From Bacteroidales bacterium (GTDB taxonomy: Bacteria > Bacteroidota > Bacteroidia > Bacteroidales > WCHB1-69), in contig JAFZZT010000001.1 of the NCBI GenBank assembly GCA_017615595.1, positions 1 to 55,816 of the forward strand: 55,816 nt of DNA, read 5' to 3'. The notes under the pieces were generated by a model. It searched no databases and was not told the DNA's origin. It saw only the letters and a list, made by a program, of their open reading frames with translations. Of this stretch, positions 414 to 16,679 are shown one piece after another. The stretch's first letter is position 1. Each line of letters starts with the position of its first letter. The translations under genes were made by a program, and so were the position numbers.

Positions 414-477
414 CCGCCGCTATCCGCATTGTCGCAAAACGGTGCGACCGCATTTTTAGGAATGAAGATTATTTAAT

Positions 478-1251
478 ATGAATGAACCGAAAATAATAGG
501 CGTTATCCCCGCACGGTACAAATCCACCCGCTTCCCCGGGAAACCGCTCGCTGACATCTGTGGGAAACCCATGATATGGTGGGTGTATCAGCAGTTCAAA
601 CTAGCCAAAGGGATAAGTGATGTGTTTGTCGCCACCGATGATCAATCAATCGCTAACGTGTGTGAAGACTACCACATGAAATATATCCTCACTTCCGATA
701 AGCACCCTACTCATTTGGACAGACTTGCTGAAGTGGCAGAAAAAATTGAGGCTGATTTCTATATTAACATCAATGGTGATGAACCTCTAATGAAACCTGA
801 ATACATAGAGTGTCTTCTCCCGAATAAATCAATAGACCCTGCCGGATTCTATTTTGCCAATGCCATGACAAAAATCGTCAAACCTGTAGAGGTGAATGAT
901 GTTTCCCGCATTAAAATAGCCACAGACAATCAAGGTTACGCCTTGTATTTAGCAAGAACTCCTATACCATACCCTAAGGCCAGTTCAAATTTTGATTATA
1001 TGAAATTTGTAGGCATACAATGCTTTACCAGAAGTGCCTTGCTCTTTTGCGGAAAAACACCAAGAGGTAAGATTGAAGGTATTGAGGACATCGATGAATA
1101 CAGGTTTTTGGAAAACGGGGAAAAAATCAAATTCATTGAGATTCCCGCAGAAACTTTGTCAGTTGACACAAAAGCGGATCTGGAAGTGGTGCGGGCCGTG
1201 ATTAAAAGACGTATATCCAGCGGAGAAATTGTATTTTACAATGAACAATAA
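478..1251 (+). CDS. KdsB-like CMP-ulosonate cytidylyltransferase (variant)
   Basis: This 257-residue protein is a GT-A-like cytidylyltransferase of the 3-deoxy-manno-octulosonate cytidylyltransferase family (KdsB: CTP + Kdo to CMP-Kdo). The N-terminal nucleotide-binding motif PARYKSTRFPGKP (residues 11-23), ATDD (52-55) and the metal-binding NGDEP (99-103) are present, and the length is normal for KdsB. The stretch normally read as HxSGTDRLAEV is here HPTHLDRLAEVA (76-87), and the usual VQGDEP is INGDEP, so the sugar pocket may differ. It opens a plus-strand run with an aldolase, a phosphatase and a sialyltransferase-like enzyme and overlaps the next gene by 11 bases. I infer activation of a Kdo-like or other ulosonic acid for a surface glycan rather than housekeeping lipid A-Kdo synthesis. 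An ordinary kdsB remains possible. Confidence 0.8.
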   Translation: MNEPKIIGVIPARYKSTRFPGKPLADICGKPMIWWVYQQFKLAKGISDVFVATDDQSIANVCEDYHMKYILTSDKHPTHLDRLAEVAEKIEADFYININGDEPLMKPEYIECLLPNKSIDPAGFYFANAMTKIVKPVEVNDVSRIKIATDNQGYALYLARTPIPYPKASSNFDYMKFVGIQCFTRSALLFCGKTPRGKIEGIEDIDEYRFLENGEKIKFIEIPAETLSVDTKADLEVVRAVIKRRISSGEIVFYNEQ

Positions 1252-2821
1252 TTTTCAAATCCTTGACTGCACCCTTCGTGACGGCGGTTATGTGAATGAT
1301 TTTCATTTTGGCCGTTATGCCATCGGAAAAATTATCTCGCAACTCACCGAATCGGGAATTGATGTGGTGGAGTGCGGCTTTTTGGAAGACGGCGAATATA
1401 ATGCGGACGAATCCGTTTTCCAAACGGTGGAGCAAATCAAGCAATTCATTCCCGCGAACAGGAAACACTCCTTGTACGTGACCATGGCTTGCTATGGGGA
1501 ATATGATATCGCCCAGCTGACACCCTTCGACGGATCGTCCATTGACGGCATCCGGGTCTCATTCCATCATAACGAGATTGCAGAGGCGATGCGTTTCTGC
1601 CACCAGGTGAAGGAAAAGGGATATAAGATTTTTATTCAACCCGTTGGCACAACAAGTTACACGAAAGACCAACTTCTGTATTTAATCCAACAGGTCAACG
1701 AATTAAATCCATACGCATTCTATTTTGTTGACACACTGGGACTAATGCACCAGGAGGATGTTCTTCGGTTTTACAATTTCATAGACCAGCATCTTTCACC
1801 CACTATTCATTTGGGTTTCCACTCGCACAACAACCTGCAACTCTCTTTCTCCAACTGCCAGGCACTTATCCATCATGTGTCCGGTCGTACGCTTCTGCTA
1901 GACGCCTCCGTTTATGGTATGGGGAGAGCTGCTGGAAACCTCAATACAGAACTGATTACCTACTATTTGAACGAGCATGATTCGAAACAATATGAGATAG
2001 AACCCATTTTGGAAATTGTGGATGAGTTCATCCTGCGAATCAGGGAGAATTTCTCGTGGGGATACAGCGTTCCCTACTATCTGGCAGCCATCAACGGTTG
2101 TCACCCGAACTATGCGACCTATCTGAGTGGGAAGCAGACACTGACTGTCCGGAATATCTCCACTATCCTACGGATGATTGAACCCGACAAAAGATCCCTT
2201 TTCGACAAAGAATTGGCAGAGAACAAATATTTGGAGTTCCAATCCAGAAAGATTGATGACAGGGCAGCCGTCAAACAACTGGAAAAAGTTATCACTGACC
2301 GCAATGTCATGTTGCTGGCGCCAGGAGCAACGACAAAGTCCTATAAAAATGAAATCCGCCGCACCATCACTGTAAACAATTGTGTCACCATCTCTGTCGG
2401 ATTTGTTCCGGACGAAATCCGTTGCGATTTCACGTTTTTAAGTAATCTGAAACGCTATAACACGATTTTCAATGAGAAACCACTGCACTCACAACTTATT
2501 CACACGTCCAACATCCAAATCGAGCACCAGGACAAGATTGTGCTCGACTATTCCAGTCTGTTGAACGAATCTGACACCATTATGGACAATTCTGCCATGA
2601 TGGTTCTTAACCTTCTGACCCGTCTCTCACCCAACAAAGTGTTTTTGGCCGGTCTTGATGGTTATCGGTACGGGGAATCCAACTATGCCCAGTCGGATAT
2701 GCTTCAGGAACAGGATAAAGAGCGTTTCGAGAAACTCAATCAGACCATCAAGGTTAGAATTTCTGAACTGAAGGAAGAATTGAACATTGAATTTGTGACA
2801 CCTTCCCTATATAACGACTAA
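1241..2821 (+). CDS. DRE-TIM aldolase (4-hydroxy-2-oxovalerate aldolase-like) with a C-terminal Rossmann-like extension
   Basis: This is a 526-residue protein when started at the ATG at 1241 (an in-frame TTG at 1229 would add four residues). Residues 1-290 form a DRE-TIM metallolyase barrel. The signature LDCTLRDGG is at 8-16, the metal-binding HSH is at 194-196 in GFHSHNN, and GMGRAAGN follows at 226-233. The family includes HMG-CoA lyase, isopropylmalate synthase and the pyruvate-releasing aldolase DmpG; the TLRDG form is closest to DmpG. Residues 355-520 are an extra domain beginning VMLLAPGATT and containing KVFLAGLDGY (466-475). Its pattern recalls DUF115/Maf and GT42-type Rossmann domains. 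Being 5' to a phosphatase and overlapping a KdsB-like gene, it may condense pyruvate with an aldose to make a 3-deoxy-2-ulosonic acid. That reaction is inference. Confidence 0.75.
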   Translation: MNNNFQILDCTLRDGGYVNDFHFGRYAIGKIISQLTESGIDVVECGFLEDGEYNADESVFQTVEQIKQFIPANRKHSLYVTMACYGEYDIAQLTPFDGSSIDGIRVSFHHNEIAEAMRFCHQVKEKGYKIFIQPVGTTSYTKDQLLYLIQQVNELNPYAFYFVDTLGLMHQEDVLRFYNFIDQHLSPTIHLGFHSHNNLQLSFSNCQALIHHVSGRTLLLDASVYGMGRAAGNLNTELITYYLNEHDSKQYEIEPILEIVDEFILRIRENFSWGYSVPYYLAAINGCHPNYATYLSGKQTLTVRNISTILRMIEPDKRSLFDKELAENKYLEFQSRKIDDRAAVKQLEKVITDRNVMLLAPGATTKSYKNEIRRTITVNNCVTISVGFVPDEIRCDFTFLSNLKRYNTIFNEKPLHSQLIHTSNIQIEHQDKIVLDYSSLLNESDTIMDNSAMMVLNLLTRLSPNKVFLAGLDGYRYGESNYAQSDMLQEQDKERFEKLNQTIKVRISELKEELNIEFVTPSLYND

Positions 2822-2826
2822 CTCTT

Positions 2827-3477
2827 ATGAGACCCTATCAAACCATCATTTTCGATCTTGACGGCACTTTGGCAGACACCTCAGAAGGAATCTACAACTG
2901 CATCCGATATGCGCAAAAGAATATGAATCTTCCGCCTATTACGGATGTACAGATGCGTTCGCACATAGGACCGCCGATGCATGAGTCTTACGAAAGGAAC
3001 TTTCATCTGACAGGAACTGAGTTGGAACTTGCCGTCGGTTATCATAAGGAGTACGCCCTGACTAAAGGATTGTATGAGACTTCCCTATACGATGGGGTTC
3101 CCAGATTGTTGTCGCAACTCAAGAGTCTAGGTTCCAAATTAGCCGTGGCCACGCTGAAATATGAGGAAACAGCACAAAAGATGCTCTCTTTCTTGAATAT
3201 CGCCTCGTTTTTTGATGTAATATGCGGTACTTTGTCGGAAGTGAAACTGACCAAAGCGCAATTATTGTTAAAATGTGTTGATTTGTGCCAGGGTGAAAAA
3301 GGCACCGCTCTGCTTGTTGGCGACAGTTCATACGATGCCCTCGGTGCACAGGAGGCTGGTATCGACTTCCTCGGTGTGACCTACGGTTTCGGATTTCTAA
3401 CAAAGGAGGATGTGAATCAATACACTAACATTGGTTGCGCAGGGTCACCAATAGAAATCATCTCTTTCATCAGTTAA
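2827..3477 (+). CDS. HAD-superfamily phosphatase, phosphoglycolate-phosphatase-like
   Basis: A 216-residue haloacid-dehalogenase hydrolase. Motif I is FDLDGTLADT (residues 9-18) with the nucleophilic and acid/base aspartates. A helical cap follows at about 20-85, motif II is VATLK near 107, and motif IV is VGDSSYDALGA near 163. This arrangement is that of Gph/PGP-like class I phosphatases. It starts five bases after the aldolase stop, so translation is probably linked. In a sugar-nucleotide cluster it could remove a phosphate from an aldolase product or precursor, as KdsC or the NeuB-pathway phosphatases do. The true substrate cannot be read from the sequence. Confidence 0.8.
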   Translation: MRPYQTIIFDLDGTLADTSEGIYNCIRYAQKNMNLPPITDVQMRSHIGPPMHESYERNFHLTGTELELAVGYHKEYALTKGLYETSLYDGVPRLLSQLKSLGSKLAVATLKYEETAQKMLSFLNIASFFDVICGTLSEVKLTKAQLLLKCVDLCQGEKGTALLVGDSSYDALGAQEAGIDFLGVTYGFGFLTKEDVNQYTNIGCAGSPIEIISFIS

Positions 3478-3504
3478 AGAACAATCCATAAAACACAGTA
3501 GTCG

Positions 3505-4545
3505 ATGAAACACATTTTCGGCGTTTCGAGCCATCTCACCTTCTATATCACACACCGCATCATTGAGTTGAATCGTTACGACAGAGACGAGTGCCTGCTT
3601 TTTCTGACCCGGAACTATTCGCTTCCGGACAATTTCAACGAGCAGTACCCGCATCAGGTGCACACAGGCTACAATCTGGCCAACAGCAAGAGCGGACGTG
3701 TATTCGCGGGGGCCAATGTCTTCAAGACCTTTCGCAACATCCGGGAGTTTGACGCGCTGATCGACCCCTTTCTGCAAGGGCGGGAGTTCCTCTATTACAC
3801 CCAGGTATGCTCCAACGACCTGACCAGTCTGATGGCCACCAAGAAGAATTGTCGCGGATTTTACGTCATAGAGGATGGTTTAGCCTCCTACCGGAACTTC
3901 AATCCGCAAACGTTTACGGGTGTCCGATATGTGGCGTACAAAACGATCCTGAATCCCCTTTTCCACCGCATCTACGCCTGCAAGAACCATTTCATCGCCT
4001 CTGAATCTCCCAAATTCTTGGGCTGTATCGCCACATTGCCATTCTGTTTCCCACTGCATCAGGACAAGCTGCAGGTGATTGGTCTTCCTTACGAAACCAT
4101 CGAATTGGGTTTCACGCCTGACGCTTTATTGTCCATAGATCCGCTGTATATGCACTTCTCAAAAGAAGACATAAAGCATATTTACACAGAATTGGGGCGG
4201 TTTATTGAAGGGAAACAGTATAAGACCATTGCTTTCAAGTACCACCCGAATTTCTTTGCCGCTGCCAATGCTGAGGTCAAGTTGTTCTTCGAGAAAACAA
4301 TACGCGACATTTTTGGGGAAAGTCTTGTTGAACTGGACAAGTCGGTGGTGCTCGAAAACGTTCTGAAGACCTATTGTTGCGATTTCTATACAGACAACTC
4401 CTCGGTTGCCCTTTATGGAAGCCAGATGGGGGCCAAGTGCTACACATACAAGCCTGTTATGCGGAAATATGCCCCGGAAGAAAAGTTTGAGGAATGGTAT
4501 CCGTCAATTCCTGTTTTGGAAAAGGCATTTTTACCAGTGGGATAG
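3505..4545 (+). CDS. Putative CMP-sugar glycosyltransferase, polysialyltransferase/GT52-like
   Basis: A 346-residue protein without signal peptide. It carries the two short motifs shared by bacterial sialyltransferase families GT38, GT52 and GT80: an acidic pair plus glycine (IEDGLASY, EDG at residues 123-125) and HP (KYHPNF, 247-248). A Ser-Ser pair in DNSSVALYG (299-300) sits where these families have a serine-rich CMP-binding loop. The spacing is that of a GT-B fold, and the length fits GT52. It lies 27 bases after the phosphatase and in series with a KdsB-like activator, so a CMP-activated ulosonic acid is the likely donor. The overall sequence is divergent, so the family call rests on the motifs, length and context. 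Confidence 0.6.
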   Translation: MKHIFGVSSHLTFYITHRIIELNRYDRDECLLFLTRNYSLPDNFNEQYPHQVHTGYNLANSKSGRVFAGANVFKTFRNIREFDALIDPFLQGREFLYYTQVCSNDLTSLMATKKNCRGFYVIEDGLASYRNFNPQTFTGVRYVAYKTILNPLFHRIYACKNHFIASESPKFLGCIATLPFCFPLHQDKLQVIGLPYETIELGFTPDALLSIDPLYMHFSKEDIKHIYTELGRFIEGKQYKTIAFKYHPNFFAAANAEVKLFFEKTIRDIFGESLVELDKSVVLENVLKTYCCDFYTDNSSVALYGSQMGAKCYTYKPVMRKYAPEEKFEEWYPSIPVLEKAFLPVG

Positions 4546-5623: not shown

Positions 5624-6859
5624 ATGGATTTAATAATTGGAGCCGGAATTTCCGGATTGAGTTACGCCGCCGCCACCAAAAACGATTATCTCATCATAGA
5701 AAAAGAGAATGAGATAGGCGGTTACTGCAAGACGATTTATTCGGGAGACTATGTCTGGGACTACTCCGGACACTTCTTCCATTTTCAACGGGAAGCCATC
5801 AAGGATTATGTAATGAGCCGGCTGAGCGATGAAGAGATGCTCAAAGTTCACAAGTTCACCCAAATTTACTACAAAGGGCTGCATGTGGACTTCCCCTTCC
5901 AGATGAACATTCACCAACTGGACAAAGAGGAGTTCATCGATTGTCTATACGATTTGTTCACCATAGAGGACAATGTGGAAATAAACTCCTTCAAGAGCAT
6001 GTTATATGCCAAATTCGGCAAGTCCATTGCCGAAAAGTTCTTGATTCCCTATAACGAAAAGTTATACTCCACCGATTTGGACAAACTGGACACCGATGCC
6101 ATGGGGAGATTTTTTCCATACGCCAACAAAGAACAGATTGTCAAGAATTTCCGAAACTCAAACAACCAGTCTTACAACGCCTTTTTCCTCTATCCGAAAC
6201 GTGGCGTCATCAAGGTGGTGGAGTCCGTGGCTTCGCATGTGGACAAATCCAAAATCAGCTTCAACGAGTGGCTTGTTTCAGTGGATATGTCCACCAAGAC
6301 GGCAGTCACCAACAAGCGCACTCTGCATTTTGACCATTTGATTTCCTCTGCGCCATTCCCGAAACTGCTGGATATGTGCAGTGTGGAATATGACAAATCC
6401 ATCTACTCATGGAACAAGGTGCTGGTGTTCAACCTCGGATTTGACAAAAAAGGTCCGGAGACCAAAAACAATTGGATTTATTTTCCAGACAGGGATTTGG
6501 TGTTTTATCGCGTTGGATTCTATGACAATATCATCGGTCAGGACAAAATGTCACTGTACGTGGAGATCGGGTTCAATCACAAAGAGAGTCATGTGGATGT
6601 GGGGCAACAGCTTGATCGCACGTTAGCGGATTTACAGAAAGCCGGCATTGTGACAGACCAGCAGTTAGTGGCCTCCCACCATGTGATGATGGATCCCGCA
6701 TACGTACACATCACCACTGCATCAGAAACCGACAAAGTTCAGAAAAAAGAGTTACTCGCAAAATCGAACATCTACTCTATCGGCAGATACGGTTCTTGGA
6801 CCTATTGCTCCTTGGAGGACAATATCTATGAAGCCTTTTGTTTGGCGGAATCATTATAA
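5624..6859 (+). CDS. FAD-dependent amine-oxidase/protoporphyrinogen-oxidase-like protein (UDP-galactopyranose-mutase-like)
   Basis: A 411-residue flavoprotein. The dinucleotide-binding GAGISGLSYA is at residues 6-15, IIEKENEIGGYC at about 23-34 completes the Rossmann beta-alpha-beta unit, and a DYSGHFFHF segment follows. The C-terminal IGRYGSWTYCSLEDNIYEA is the second FAD contact seen in the protoporphyrinogen oxidase/UDP-galactopyranose mutase group. Relatives are frequent in capsule and O-antigen loci, where UDP-galactopyranose mutase makes the furanose form. Here the sequence is too divergent to assign that reaction. Its last 34 bases overlap, tail to tail, the 3' end of the YfhO gene on the other strand. 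Confidence 0.7.
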   Translation: MDLIIGAGISGLSYAAATKNDYLIIEKENEIGGYCKTIYSGDYVWDYSGHFFHFQREAIKDYVMSRLSDEEMLKVHKFTQIYYKGLHVDFPFQMNIHQLDKEEFIDCLYDLFTIEDNVEINSFKSMLYAKFGKSIAEKFLIPYNEKLYSTDLDKLDTDAMGRFFPYANKEQIVKNFRNSNNQSYNAFFLYPKRGVIKVVESVASHVDKSKISFNEWLVSVDMSTKTAVTNKRTLHFDHLISSAPFPKLLDMCSVEYDKSIYSWNKVLVFNLGFDKKGPETKNNWIYFPDRDLVFYRVGFYDNIIGQDKMSLYVEIGFNHKESHVDVGQQLDRTLADLQKAGIVTDQQLVASHHVMMDPAYVHITTASETDKVQKKELLAKSNIYSIGRYGSWTYCSLEDNIYEAFCLAESL

Positions 6860-13700: not shown

Positions 13701-16679
13701 TCAATGTTTTACCACGACAGGTTTGGCAAAGAGACGAACCTCTTGGTCGGTGCCCACCAGCAGATAGGTTCCATTGGGCAGGTGGCGCACCGACAACCTC
13801 CACTCCTCTCTCCTACCCTTCCAGCTACGGCAGAGTCTGCCCTGCATATCATAGAGCAACAGCTGGTCAACAGGAGCGCCGGAGACATACAGCACATCGG
13901 AAACGGGATTAGGGTAATAGTTCAGGTTGACAGCAGGATAGTCTTCGACACCATAGCCCTGCGTGTAGATAAAGATCGAATCCACGGCTGTACAAGGGGA
14001 GTTATCCATCGAGGCAGTGACTTTATACCATGTCGGCATGATGGGGCACACCTCAATCTGGGCAGTAACCTGACCTGTACTCCAAAAGTAATGGTCTGCC
14101 CCATAAGCCGTTAAGATGGCCGTCTCGGGATAATACAGCGCATCATTGGTCATGGACAGACACAGCTCAGGATGCGGATGTACGGTCAGATGCATCGTGA
14201 CCACGCTGTCGCAACCCAGGCTGCTGACAAAGGTAACGGGATAGTCGCCAGAAGTGTAATATGTGATGCCATTCCAGACGTAGTAGTTGCAAGTCTCAGC
14301 AGTAAAGTCTGCAGAGACACTTGGATTAACCGAGAGCTGCAGCACCGTGAGTGTGTCGTTCGCATAATAGAAATAGCTTCCCGAGTCGGTGGCCACCTGT
14401 CCATGGAAGAGATAGGAGTCTCCCTCGCAGATCAGCGCTGAGACCGTGTCCACATGGGCCACCACCTGCACTAAAACATCGGTGGTCACCTCGGCAGCGG
14501 CATTATCCGCATAGACTGCCGCGATGTGATAGGTGTAGGAGCCCGACTGCGTCACAATATCGTCATAGTAGTTATGGGAGGTAGTGCCTACCAGAAGAGT
14601 GTCACGGCTGATTTGATAATGGTCAAGGGTGGGTGGCAGCGACTGGAACTGTGCTCTTAACGAGAAGTTCTTGCCCACCCCGTAGAAGCTCCACGAGATG
14701 CTGCCAGAGGCATAGTGTCGGCCCGCTATCTCCCCCTTCTCGGGTTCATAGGTGGCGGTATTGCCCACCGGAAGGGTATAGGAGCCACCGGGGGCCTCGA
14801 CATAGATGCCGTACCATATCTCTTCTCCCAAGACGATAGGCACGGGCGTCTGCAAAGCCACCGTATTCCAGGCATTGCTATTCAACTGGCTGAGATTCAA
14901 CACTTGCTCCAGCACTTGCGTGCCCGGGGACAAGGTATAGCCATCATAGCTACCTCCTTGATAAACCACCAGTTTGCAGGCTGTCACTGCCGACTTTAGA
15001 TAGAAGGTGATATGGGTCAGCTGGGCGGGATAAAAAGCCACCAGATCGGTGTCGCAGAGACGATACATGATGGTGCGGGCATAGTCAGTGCTATAGCCAT
15101 AGTTCGTGCTGTGGGTAGTCTCGCCATGGGTGAAAGACTGTTGGGACACGGCCGGCGGATTCCATGTCAGATGGACGGCAGGGGCGGTGTACACCGCATT
15201 GGGATTTTGCGGGGCATTGTGCGCCACCGGTATTGCCTCACCCCTCAAAGTGACTGTGGCAATAAGGCTGTCATAGTTCAAGGTGATGGTGCCGTAGTGG
15301 GTCTGCTGTGCCGTGGTGGCAGCCTGATAGCGCACATAGAGGAACTGGTTGCCCGAGTTCAGCACGGCAGTATCCGCGAATGGATCTGTCCCGTTGCTGA
15401 TGGTAAAGTCACCCGACACCGTGGCGATCACCTGCTGACTGCCGTTGACGCTGATGACGCGCATCCGTGCCGTGTCGGCAGAACCGCTGACGCTATACAG
15501 GGAGAGTTGCTGGGTGCTGGGCTTCATCATCGCCCGATCCACATAGATATTGACAACCGCACCTTGTGAAGTGGTAAAGTCGTGAGTGCCAGGGGTAAGG
15601 TCTGACAGCAGGAAATAGCCGTTGTTGGAGCCGCTCCATCCCCAGTTAAAGTGGAAGTAGTTCTGGTCATCGTAGCCATCGCAGACAAAAGAGTGGCCGC
15701 CGCCTTCCCCCTGCCCCCGATAGATCACCGGCCGCAGGTTGTTAAGCTGACCCTTGATCAGGTTCGACCAGTTGGTGGCCGAGTAATTGCTTTTGGACTT
15801 ATAGGAAGGGTTAGACGTATATCCGAAATAGGTGGTCAGAGCATTAGGGGTATGGCTGGTGTAGGCGCTGCTGCCATCGTTCCCATAGTCCATGTCCACC
15901 GAGACCCCGCAGTGATAGATCAGCTGGGCCACCGCCTGTCTCTGGGCGGCGGGAGTAGATGAAGTCACTCTGTAGGGCATCAGGGAATAGTTGTATGTGG
16001 TGGCGCCAAAATTGGCCGACTCCGTACCATAGTCGCTAACATAGCTGTAGCTTCCGCTTCCTTGGGTCGGATACTCCCAATACCGCAGCACCTGCGCCAA
16101 GGCCGTGGCCACGCAACCTGCATAGGCATGCCCGCCGGGGCCATCCACATCCGCTGGGCAAAGGTCGTTATAATAACTATTTTGATCCCAGAGCGTTGAG
16201 AGTAATGGGGGCACCACAACCTCGTTGCGGAGCGTCTGTGGGTGTTGCTCTAACATATCTCGCCACAACGGGTGCTCCACACCTGCTATGTTCGGGGTGT
16301 TTCGAAGATAGTCCTCTATCTCAGCCGCATAATCGTCAAAAAAATCGGTTAAGGCTGGCATCACCTGGTCCACATCGAAAGGTCCTTCCGTGGAATAGGC
16401 GATGACAGGCGTGATCCGGTTGTCGGCGGACACGATCACATAGCCGTCACTCACATTGTAGATATAGAAAACCGGTAGCGCCTTGTCGAAGCCAGACAAG
16501 GGCGCATAATAGGTATAAACCTTTTCAGGATAGGATCCCGTCACCTCCGACTGGGTCTTCCACTGGTAAAAAATCGTGGCTACCTGCCTGGCTGTCGTAC
16601 TATCCACCGGACTTGCCCATGAAATCATAAAAGAGGACAGCAGCCATCCTAACAAGAAGTATATTTTGAACTTTCGCAT
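13701..16679 (-). CDS. Secreted C10-family (streptopain-like) cysteine protease with type IX secretion tail
   Basis: A 992-residue protein. The signal peptide (1-22) is followed by a Spi/propeptide domain (about 25-130, including GYVIVSADNRITPVIAYS). The C10 peptidase domain (about 155-375) has catalytic Cys189 in HAYAGCVATALAQVLRYW, His329 in GGGHSFVCDGYD, and the FNWGWSG box near 344-350. Streptopain and interpain belong here. Beyond 380 there are beta domains: an abnormal-spindle-like stretch, a cleaved-adhesin-like region (about 510-680), a fibronectin-like segment, and two modules of the type CxxYxWxGxxYxxSGxY. The end, YYPNPVSDVLYVSG then a final VVVKH, is a type A type IX sorting domain. 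It should act outside the cell, on host or dietary protein. Expression is from the promoter at 16700. Confidence 0.9.
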   Translation of the reverse strand: MRKFKIYFLLGWLLSSFMISWASPVDSTTARQVATIFYQWKTQSEVTGSYPEKVYTYYAPLSGFDKALPVFYIYNVSDGYVIVSADNRITPVIAYSTEGPFDVDQVMPALTDFFDDYAAEIEDYLRNTPNIAGVEHPLWRDMLEQHPQTLRNEVVVPPLLSTLWDQNSYYNDLCPADVDGPGGHAYAGCVATALAQVLRYWEYPTQGSGSYSYVSDYGTESANFGATTYNYSLMPYRVTSSTPAAQRQAVAQLIYHCGVSVDMDYGNDGSSAYTSHTPNALTTYFGYTSNPSYKSKSNYSATNWSNLIKGQLNNLRPVIYRGQGEGGGHSFVCDGYDDQNYFHFNWGWSGSNNGYFLLSDLTPGTHDFTTSQGAVVNIYVDRAMMKPSTQQLSLYSVSGSADTARMRVISVNGSQQVIATVSGDFTISNGTDPFADTAVLNSGNQFLYVRYQAATTAQQTHYGTITLNYDSLIATVTLRGEAIPVAHNAPQNPNAVYTAPAVHLTWNPPAVSQQSFTHGETTHSTNYGYSTDYARTIMYRLCDTDLVAFYPAQLTHITFYLKSAVTACKLVVYQGGSYDGYTLSPGTQVLEQVLNLSQLNSNAWNTVALQTPVPIVLGEEIWYGIYVEAPGGSYTLPVGNTATYEPEKGEIAGRHYASGSISWSFYGVGKNFSLRAQFQSLPPTLDHYQISRDTLLVGTTSHNYYDDIVTQSGSYTYHIAAVYADNAAAEVTTDVLVQVVAHVDTVSALICEGDSYLFHGQVATDSGSYFYYANDTLTVLQLSVNPSVSADFTAETCNYYVWNGITYYTSGDYPVTFVSSLGCDSVVTMHLTVHPHPELCLSMTNDALYYPETAILTAYGADHYFWSTGQVTAQIEVCPIMPTWYKVTASMDNSPCTAVDSIFIYTQGYGVEDYPAVNLNYYPNPVSDVLYVSGAPVDQLLLYDMQGRLCRSWKGRREEWRLSVRHLPNGTYLLVGTDQEVRLFAKPVVVKH

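Follow-up and report, generated by a model that had tools for sequence, protein, structure and literature searches.

The established routes to Kdo (3-deoxy-D-manno-octulosonic acid) and sialic acids activated with cytidine monophosphate (CMP) begin with a synthase that depends on phosphoenolpyruvate (PEP), either KdsA or NeuB. We analysed a stretch of 55,816 nucleotides from a Bacteroidales bacterium (GTDB lineage WCHB1-69; assembly GCA_017615595.1, contig JAFZZT010000001.1, positions 1 to 55,816 of the forward strand), called the window below. It carries a cassette of closely packed genes for a KdsB-like cytidylyltransferase, an aldolase of the DRE-TIM type, a HAD-family phosphatase and a glycosyltransferase. 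On balance our analysis leans towards the first three genes being a mobile unit for the synthesis of a 3-deoxy-2-ulosonic acid, activated with CMP and distinct from Kdo. By its sequence features this is probably a dedicated CMP-ulosonate cassette, in which the DRE-TIM enzyme replaces the PEP synthase. The first-pass annotation of this DNA had described four packed plus-strand genes in this order; all four are present as open reading frames (ORFs), and Pfam and NCBIfam confirm their families. The features are the following, where L numbers denote loci of related modules (G and C are used below for genomes and contigs).

478-1251, plus strand: KdsB-like cytidylyltransferase, 257 aa, the second kdsB of the genome; motifs NINGDEP, KFVGIQCF and DIDEYR; pocket unlike that of the housekeeping KdsB
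1241-2821, plus strand: long-form HMGL-like (DRE-TIM) aldolase, 526 aa from the ATG
2252-2818, plus strand: alpha/beta C-terminal domain of the aldolase protein, with a PF01973 match at the family level
2827-3477, plus strand: HAD-family phosphatase, 216 aa; HAD_2, E 4.8e-34
3505-4545, plus strand: polysialyltransferase-like glycosyltransferase with EDG and HP motifs, 346 aa; sub-threshold PF07388 match; weak homologues in L043, L044 and L048
4608-5618, plus strand: GT2 glycosyltransferase, PF00535, E 2.5e-28; 62 bp gap before it; probably in the same transcription unit
5624-6859, plus strand: FAD-dependent oxidoreductase, PF13450 and PF01593; 5 bp gap before it; likewise probably in the same unit
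477-3401, plus strand: apparently horizontally shared three-gene block (KdsB-like gene, aldolase gene and most of the HAD gene), 87.7% DNA identity to a metagenome-assembled genome (MAG) of another family

By analogy, the architecture of the cassette is that of the Kdo pathway (KdsD-KdsA-KdsC-KdsB) with one step replaced, a variant of the synthase-phosphatase-cytidylyltransferase route. Like that pathway it joins a carbon-carbon bond enzyme, a HAD phosphatase and a KdsB-type cytidylyltransferase. Unlike it, the cassette has a DRE-TIM HMGL-like protein instead of the PEP-dependent KdsA, its KdsB has lost a His and a Gln of the pocket, and its phosphatase falls in HAD_2 and drew no match to a KdsC model of NCBIfam. 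The nonulosonic acid pathway (NeuB/PseI followed by NeuA/PseF) is resembled in the PseF/NeuA-type cytidylyltransferases at 11 of 18 module loci and in the polysialyltransferase-like glycosyltransferases at some of them, whereas NeuB was not found in the window's genome or in four other module genomes (G112, G123, G402 and G054). We recognised no description of an aldolase-based CMP-ulosonate pathway in the open-access literature, which is weak evidence of absence.

In the scheme that we propose, a metal-dependent DRE-TIM barrel would join pyruvate to a phosphorylated aldose, giving a 3-deoxy-2-ulosonate phosphate and taking the place of KdsA or NeuB with no need for PEP. The HAD enzyme would take off the phosphate as KdsC does, the KdsB-like enzyme would activate the free acid with cytidine triphosphate (CTP), and the polysialyltransferase-like enzyme would move the sugar to a surface glycan. 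The Maf/MptE-like C-terminal domain of the aldolase might be a second candidate transferase, or a domain that handles the product. We infer every reaction, the metal, the phosphorylated acceptor and the identity of the sugar from what is read directly, namely the genes and their families, the linkage, the altered pocket, the shared block and the related-module genomes that have neither KdsA nor NeuB.

Linkage to cytidylyltransferases and transfer of the block

We searched for the aldolase family with a protein search of 395 genomes of Bacteroidota and a profile search of 393 genomes of Bacteroidales. The family comes in two sizes: proteins of ~320-350 aa (the short form) and proteins of ~510-530 aa that have an additional domain at the C-terminus (the long form). 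Long forms were taken from the protein search at E below 1e-20 with a frame of more than 500 aa that proved to be long-form, and from the profile search where more than 500 of the 513 model positions were covered, plus one Leisingera plasmid. This set leaves out weaker protein-search matches with long frames, which are presumably isopropylmalate synthases.

The first-pass annotation had suggested looking for co-occurrence of the four families across genomes. A cytidylyltransferase gene lies within 2.7 kb at 18 of the 18 long-form loci (the window and its near-copy L089 included), a HAD gene is present at 13 of them, and relatives of the window glycosyltransferase occur in L043, L044 and L048. 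For the short forms, used as the control, a cytidylyltransferase was found at only three of 20 fetched loci (L051, L091 and L092); these 20 are a chosen subset (11 from the profile search, five from the protein search and four from plasmids), and some are clipped by contig ends. Random placement would give a linkage chance of ~0.5% per locus, and the short forms are the fairer control because sugar genes cluster. The models behind the linkage count were built partly from the same cytidylyltransferase genes. A Pfam scan of 18 genomes, independent of those models, placed PF02348 at the module positions in all 15 of the non-window module genomes. By best model, seven of the 18 linked cytidylyltransferases are of the KdsB type and 11 of the PseF/NeuA type, and the named members of both types act on ulosonic acids.

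In a quick tree of the barrel domain with 39 rows, the cytidylyltransferase-linked barrels fall mainly in two deep groups, a large GGYYTNW group and the seven-row group of the window. The latter consists of the window, L005, L007, L090, the short forms L091 and L092, and L036, and five of its rows have the link. The link is clustered on the tree (6 changes vs 13.3 when shuffled). Sister status of the two groups does not follow from this, and the tree joins some long branches to each other.

The accessory genes of the modules were also compared. The HAD genes at 13 loci comprise 11 found by model, that of the window found by Pfam, and that of L089/L005, counted as 84% identical to the window HAD. 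PfkB kinases are present in L084 and L085, the latter closest to the 2-keto-3-deoxygluconate (KDG) type with 319 bits, under the 700-bit cut-off of that fusion model. An HpcH/HpaI pyruvate-type aldolase stands beside the DRE aldolase in L042 and L090 (Pfam) and in L044 and L045 (by eye). KdsC-type phosphatases, KDG-type kinases and pyruvate aldolases all belong to 2-keto-3-deoxy acid chemistry, and by analogy these accessory genes, together with a KdsC-family phosphatase at one relative described below, fit an ulosonic acid product.

Some of these loci carry further genes. An LdpA-like iron-sulfur protein is encoded at L090:11295-12380 (genome G577) inside the module of aldolase, HpcH, HAD and KdsB-type genes, and a cytidylyltransferase gene and NeuB lie directly upstream of that module. 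In L036, on a Desulfobaculum plasmid, a short window-type aldolase (36% identical) adjoins RfbH and two genes annotated as transketolases; this locus, which has no cytidylyltransferase, may perhaps represent a branched-sugar route.

The three genes appear to move together. Window positions 477-3401 share 87.7% DNA identity over 2929 aligned positions with the Bacteroidales MAG Tb.RUG.344 (L005/L089, genome G397). The matching block runs from the base just ahead of the kdsB-like ATG to a point within the HAD gene, so that the glycosyltransferase is not included. G397 belongs to another family, and its housekeeping KdsB and KdsA are 47% and 50% identical to those of the window's genome at the protein level; the GC content is 41-45% in the shared block vs 52% in the window from 9000 on. 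Hence the KdsB-like, aldolase and HAD genes look transferred as one unit. The same three families are contiguous, in the order aldolase-KdsB-HAD, on three Leisingera plasmids (two by annotation alone). The matches in the plasmid collection were these three cassettes, HOA (4-hydroxy-2-oxovalerate) aldolases and short forms (four of these regions inspected). A phage origin was rejected, with only two partial phage tblastn matches at 22% and 25% identity.

Aldolase, KdsB pocket and source of the substrate

The aldolase protein has two domains, an HMGL-like barrel (E 6e-19) followed at the C-terminus by one with a weak relationship to PF01973 (Maf/MptE). The closest named family of the barrel is HOA aldolase (DmpG/BphI type), at 80 of 229 bits, far under the cut-off. 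Like these enzymes it has a DRE-TIM barrel, an RDG motif and an HxH motif aligned with the metal ligands. R13, D14, H194 and H196 occur in every one of the 13 long forms that were aligned (13 of 13). In an alignment with solved HOA aldolases, D14, H194 and H196 fall at the metal ligands and R13 at the substrate Arg. The enzyme would act like a pyruvate lyase/synthase. Unlike HOA aldolases, it adjoins no aldehyde dehydrogenase partner, carries the MptE/Maf-like C-terminal domain and has Tyr where the catalytic base His stands. The solved structure 3DXI resembles the larger long-form branch in its LDCTLRDGGYYTNWDF start and NLPYMLSGANN motif; it differs from the long forms in being a 320-residue chain with no C-terminal domain, and its entry names only a 'putative aldolase'.

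PF01973 matches 12 of 18 homologous C-terminal domains at E<=1 (best 4e-6), and the window's own domain has no PF01973 match. The matches to this family, which is that of the central domain of Maf flagellin glycosyltransferases, are weak, and the domains here are fused to an aldolase barrel and not to the Maf N- and C-terminal domains. A PDB profile search with the C-terminal domain gave only an unrelated match (E 1.5). Aligned by hhalign with two MptE-like proteins of module loci (one assigned by Pfam, the other by eye), it reached 6% probability over 37 columns, which counts against our initial guess. Its AlphaFold2 (AF2) model is alpha/beta, with a mean predicted local distance difference test (pLDDT) score of 72.7. 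In the excerpted text of PMC11339370, the PF01973 domain of Maf is reported to resemble the sialyltransferase Cst-II, and the Maf of C. botulinum to be able to glycosylate with Neu5Ac and Kdo.

The KdsB-like protein matches CTP_transf_3 (PF02348) at E 4.6e-43, its top NCBIfam models are all KdsB, and it carries the cytidylyltransferase GDEP motif as NINGDEP. We aligned the pockets of seven module KdsBs (the window and L005 are near-copies) with those of the 12 best-scoring KdsBs outside modules. The His of HIGxYAYR is present in 12 of 12 housekeeping KdsBs and in none of the seven module KdsBs (Phe, Phe, Gln, Gln, Gln, Gln and Ala). The Gln of LEQLR, counted by eye, is present in 10 of 12 and again in none of the seven. 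In the window protein the two residues are Phe and Glu; in addition, the Gln of QGDEP, found in five solved KdsBs compared and kept in five of the seven module KdsBs, is Asn. RHIGVYAYR is named a substrate-binding motif of KdsB in the excerpted text of PMC7717453; the excerpted text of PMC3149649 did not give the numbering of the Kdo-contact residues. With the His of the substrate motif lost, the sugar used by the module KdsBs is probably not Kdo.

The first-pass annotation would have been undermined if the window kdsB were the sole housekeeping copy, and it is not. The genome of the window (2.1 Mb, with an estimated completeness of 92%; the window is contig C21) has a separate KdsB on contig C18 that is 82% identical to the KdsB of a same-genus genome and 33% identical to the window protein. 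The role of housekeeping KdsB was accordingly rejected for the window protein, whose gene is by these identities a paralogue.

For the source of the substrate we tested 18 whole genomes for KdsA, NeuB and PF02348 (the last at E<=0.001). No KdsA-type or NeuB gene was placed in the window. The earlier claim that no PEP-dependent synthase is present thus stands for the locus and falls for the genome, where KdsA was found on contig C49. NeuB as a feeder of the cassette was rejected, as the 92% complete genome shows no NeuB. Both KdsA and NeuB are absent from G112, G123 and G402 by the profile tests, and the only PF02348 genes of these genomes are the modules' own; G112 is a single contig, 99% complete, and the module cytidylyltransferase of G123 is of the KdsB type. 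G054 likewise has neither KdsA nor NeuB, yet it has two PF02348 matches beyond the module, one of them below the cut-off. In total NeuB is missing in 11 of the 18 genomes, these four included.

G402 has weak KdsA matches only, in a 377-aa frame also matched by PF00793, which we read as a 3-deoxy-D-arabino-heptulosonate 7-phosphate (DAHP) synthase. The loss of KdsA looks real by sequence comparison, because the other genome drawn from its genus, G757, also has weak matches only, and 21 of 39 genomes of its family pass the KdsA cut-off. Since WaaA was found in none of G112, G123, G054 and G203 (nor was PF00793; G203 has NeuB), the module cytidylyltransferases of these four genomes can hardly serve Kdo. 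Unless the substrate of the cytidylyltransferase is taken up, the module is its only known possible supplier in G112 and G123. G402 (module locus L088) has WaaA (PF04413) with no KdsA, NeuB or non-module cytidylyltransferase.

We put forward, more tentatively than the cassette itself, a wider proposal. There may be a third, PEP-free CMP-ulosonate route beside KdsA and NeuB, one that spans Bacteroidota and Alphaproteobacteria and in which a single protein combines a pyruvate aldolase with a Maf/Cst-II-like domain. It could be the sole source of CMP-ulosonate in some genomes, and might even replace Kdo in the lipopolysaccharide core in lineages like G402, which have WaaA without KdsA or a housekeeping KdsB. 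The cassette has relatives in distant bacteria, and in some of these no other known route to such sugars is evident. If the cassette works as proposed, an unrelated pyruvate-type barrel would have replaced the PEP-dependent step in a mobile, modular form, and annotation as KdsB plus 'aldolase' (e.g. on the Leisingera plasmids) would be overlooking a class of surface sugars. It would also offer a possible new biocatalyst for ulosonic acid production, with pyruvate as an inexpensive starting material, in a cassette small enough for tests with purified proteins.

Alternative explanations

A number of our observations pull away from a dedicated aldolase cassette, beginning with exceptions to the linkage. 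A 19th long form, L007, shows no cytidylyltransferase on its 3.5 kb contig, too short to judge the link, and was counted apart. L036, on the window branch, has none. Five of the 18 loci (L084-L088) show no HAD gene by the model used, and that model does not match the HAD of the window or of L089/L005 either. For the aldolase, the curated cut-off of the HOA aldolase model TIGR03217 is not reached (63.1 of 286 bits), and by this score the window protein is not a member of that family. In addition, the position after RDG-x, where HOA aldolases have their catalytic base His, is Tyr17.

This Tyr would suit a different chemistry, to which we give a lower but still appreciable probability. The DRE-TIM protein could be a Claisen-type synthase or another carboligase, working on a 2-oxo acid or a nucleotide-linked sugar to give an acid sugar, branched or with a lengthened chain, for later activation with CMP. 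The HMGL-like superfamily includes synthases, although they were matched more weakly. Possible partners exist in the genes for thiamine pyrophosphate (TPP)-type enzymes that adjoin relatives on the window branch, at L091 (Pfam and NCBIfam), L036 (annotation), and L007 and L092 (by eye). Moreover, with a separate HpcH/HpaI pyruvate aldolase present, L042 and L090 would have no need of another. Against this reading, the closest named family is an aldolase, the window cassette holds no TPP or HpcH gene, and all four of the residues R13, D14, H194 and H196 are kept.

It is also somewhat unlikely, in our assessment, that the cassette activates ordinary Kdo, or a KdsA-made Kdo that is later modified. 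The KdsB-like protein would then be a capsule-type paralogue like KpsU, and the aldolase would have another product, e.g. a substituent of the acyl or pyruvyl type. Among solved structures the KdsB-like protein matches 1gq9 best, an entry that is named a KdsB and is E. coli KpsU, and the protein passes the cut-off of an NCBIfam KdsB subfamily (231 of 193 bits). The KdsA on C49 could feed the cassette, and KdsA is present in five of five window-branch genomes tested (G000, G397, G577, G323 and G512; G636 not included). In the nearest relative, G397, KdsA-KdsD-PseF-type genes lie directly upstream of the block, and this KdsA is the only one of the genome over the cut-off. The genomes without KdsA all carry modules of the large branch, with aldolases 20-23% identical to that of the window. 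Against an ordinary Kdo substrate stand the loss of the substrate-motif His and Gln in all seven module KdsBs, the extent of the transferred block, which leaves out KdsA and KdsD, and the related modules in genomes with no KdsA, NeuB or WaaA.

Salvage, with a scavenged ulosonic acid as the substrate of the cytidylyltransferase and the aldolase serving as a catabolic lyase for the excess, seems very improbable: aldolases are reversible in principle, but simple salvage has no place for the HAD phosphatase, the three genes look to have been transferred together, and no sialic-acid/Kdo transporter or NanA-type gene was noticed by eye near the cassettes, no dedicated search having been made.

The idea from the first-pass annotation of a dedicated non-Kdo CMP-ulosonate cassette, with an aldolase for KdsA/NeuB, is therefore upheld in part. 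It gains from the linkage at 18 of 18 long-form loci, the related-module genomes without KdsA and NeuB, the altered pockets and the transfer of the block. It is weakened by the KdsA of the window's genome and of its branch, by the KdsA-KdsD genes upstream in the closest relative and by Tyr17.

Glycosyltransferase, alleles at the locus and neighbouring genes

The window glycosyltransferase reaches 16.9 of 23.3 bits with PF07388 (A-2_8-polyST), below the gathering cut-off. Its homologues in L043, L044 and L048 were found by tblastn with E 1e-6 to 4e-4; the module glycosyltransferases of L044 and L048 pass the PF07388 cut-off, and that of L043 has no PF07388 match. The two motifs reported earlier for this protein are there, with EDG at residues 123-125 and HP at 247-248. 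E-D/E-G and HP motifs are typical of bacterial sialyltransferases. In the four aligned module glycosyltransferases E123, G125 and P248 are invariant and H247 is kept in two. The AF2 model of the protein was poor (mean pLDDT 56.6) and was not used.

Genomes G512 and G609, both of the window's genus, apparently have other cassettes at the same chromosomal place, beside a gene for a large membrane protein (YfhO-like by eye); the flanking match is 75% DNA identity over 2 kb to G512 and 82% protein identity to G609. The allele of G512 (L091) encodes a short DRE aldolase with a cytidylyltransferase of the PseF type, together with a TPP enzyme of the acetolactate-synthase type that is split, and a phosphatase that passes the cut-off of a KdsC-family model (126.8 of 106.95 bits). 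The split TPP enzyme occupies two neighbouring ORFs in each of two genera, at L091:4234-5867 (Pfam and NCBIfam) and at L092:439-2044 (by eye), and each time a short DRE aldolase gene and one of the PseF type adjoin it. At L146:1907-5451, G609 has a PEP mutase and a phosphonopyruvate decarboxylase, both over the cut-off, and a relative of iron-containing alcohol dehydrogenases, by sequence a phosphonate allele in place of the window cassette; no phosphonate cassette was noticed in the window itself. In our reading the site is a variable locus for surface glycans, at which cassettes predicted to make activated acidic groups replace one another.

The aldolase ATG at 1241 overlaps the kdsB-like stop by 11 bp, and the gaps are 5 bp between the aldolase and HAD genes and 27 bp between the HAD and glycosyltransferase genes. 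Because the GT2 and FAD-dependent enzyme genes follow close behind the glycosyltransferase, the transcription unit of the cassette probably has six genes. The FAD-dependent oxidoreductase matches NCBIfam models of the PRK07208 type below their cut-off. Further along the window, positions 13701-16679 on the minus strand encode a large secreted protein; judged by eye, it resembles a peptidase of the C10 type that has a sorting tail.

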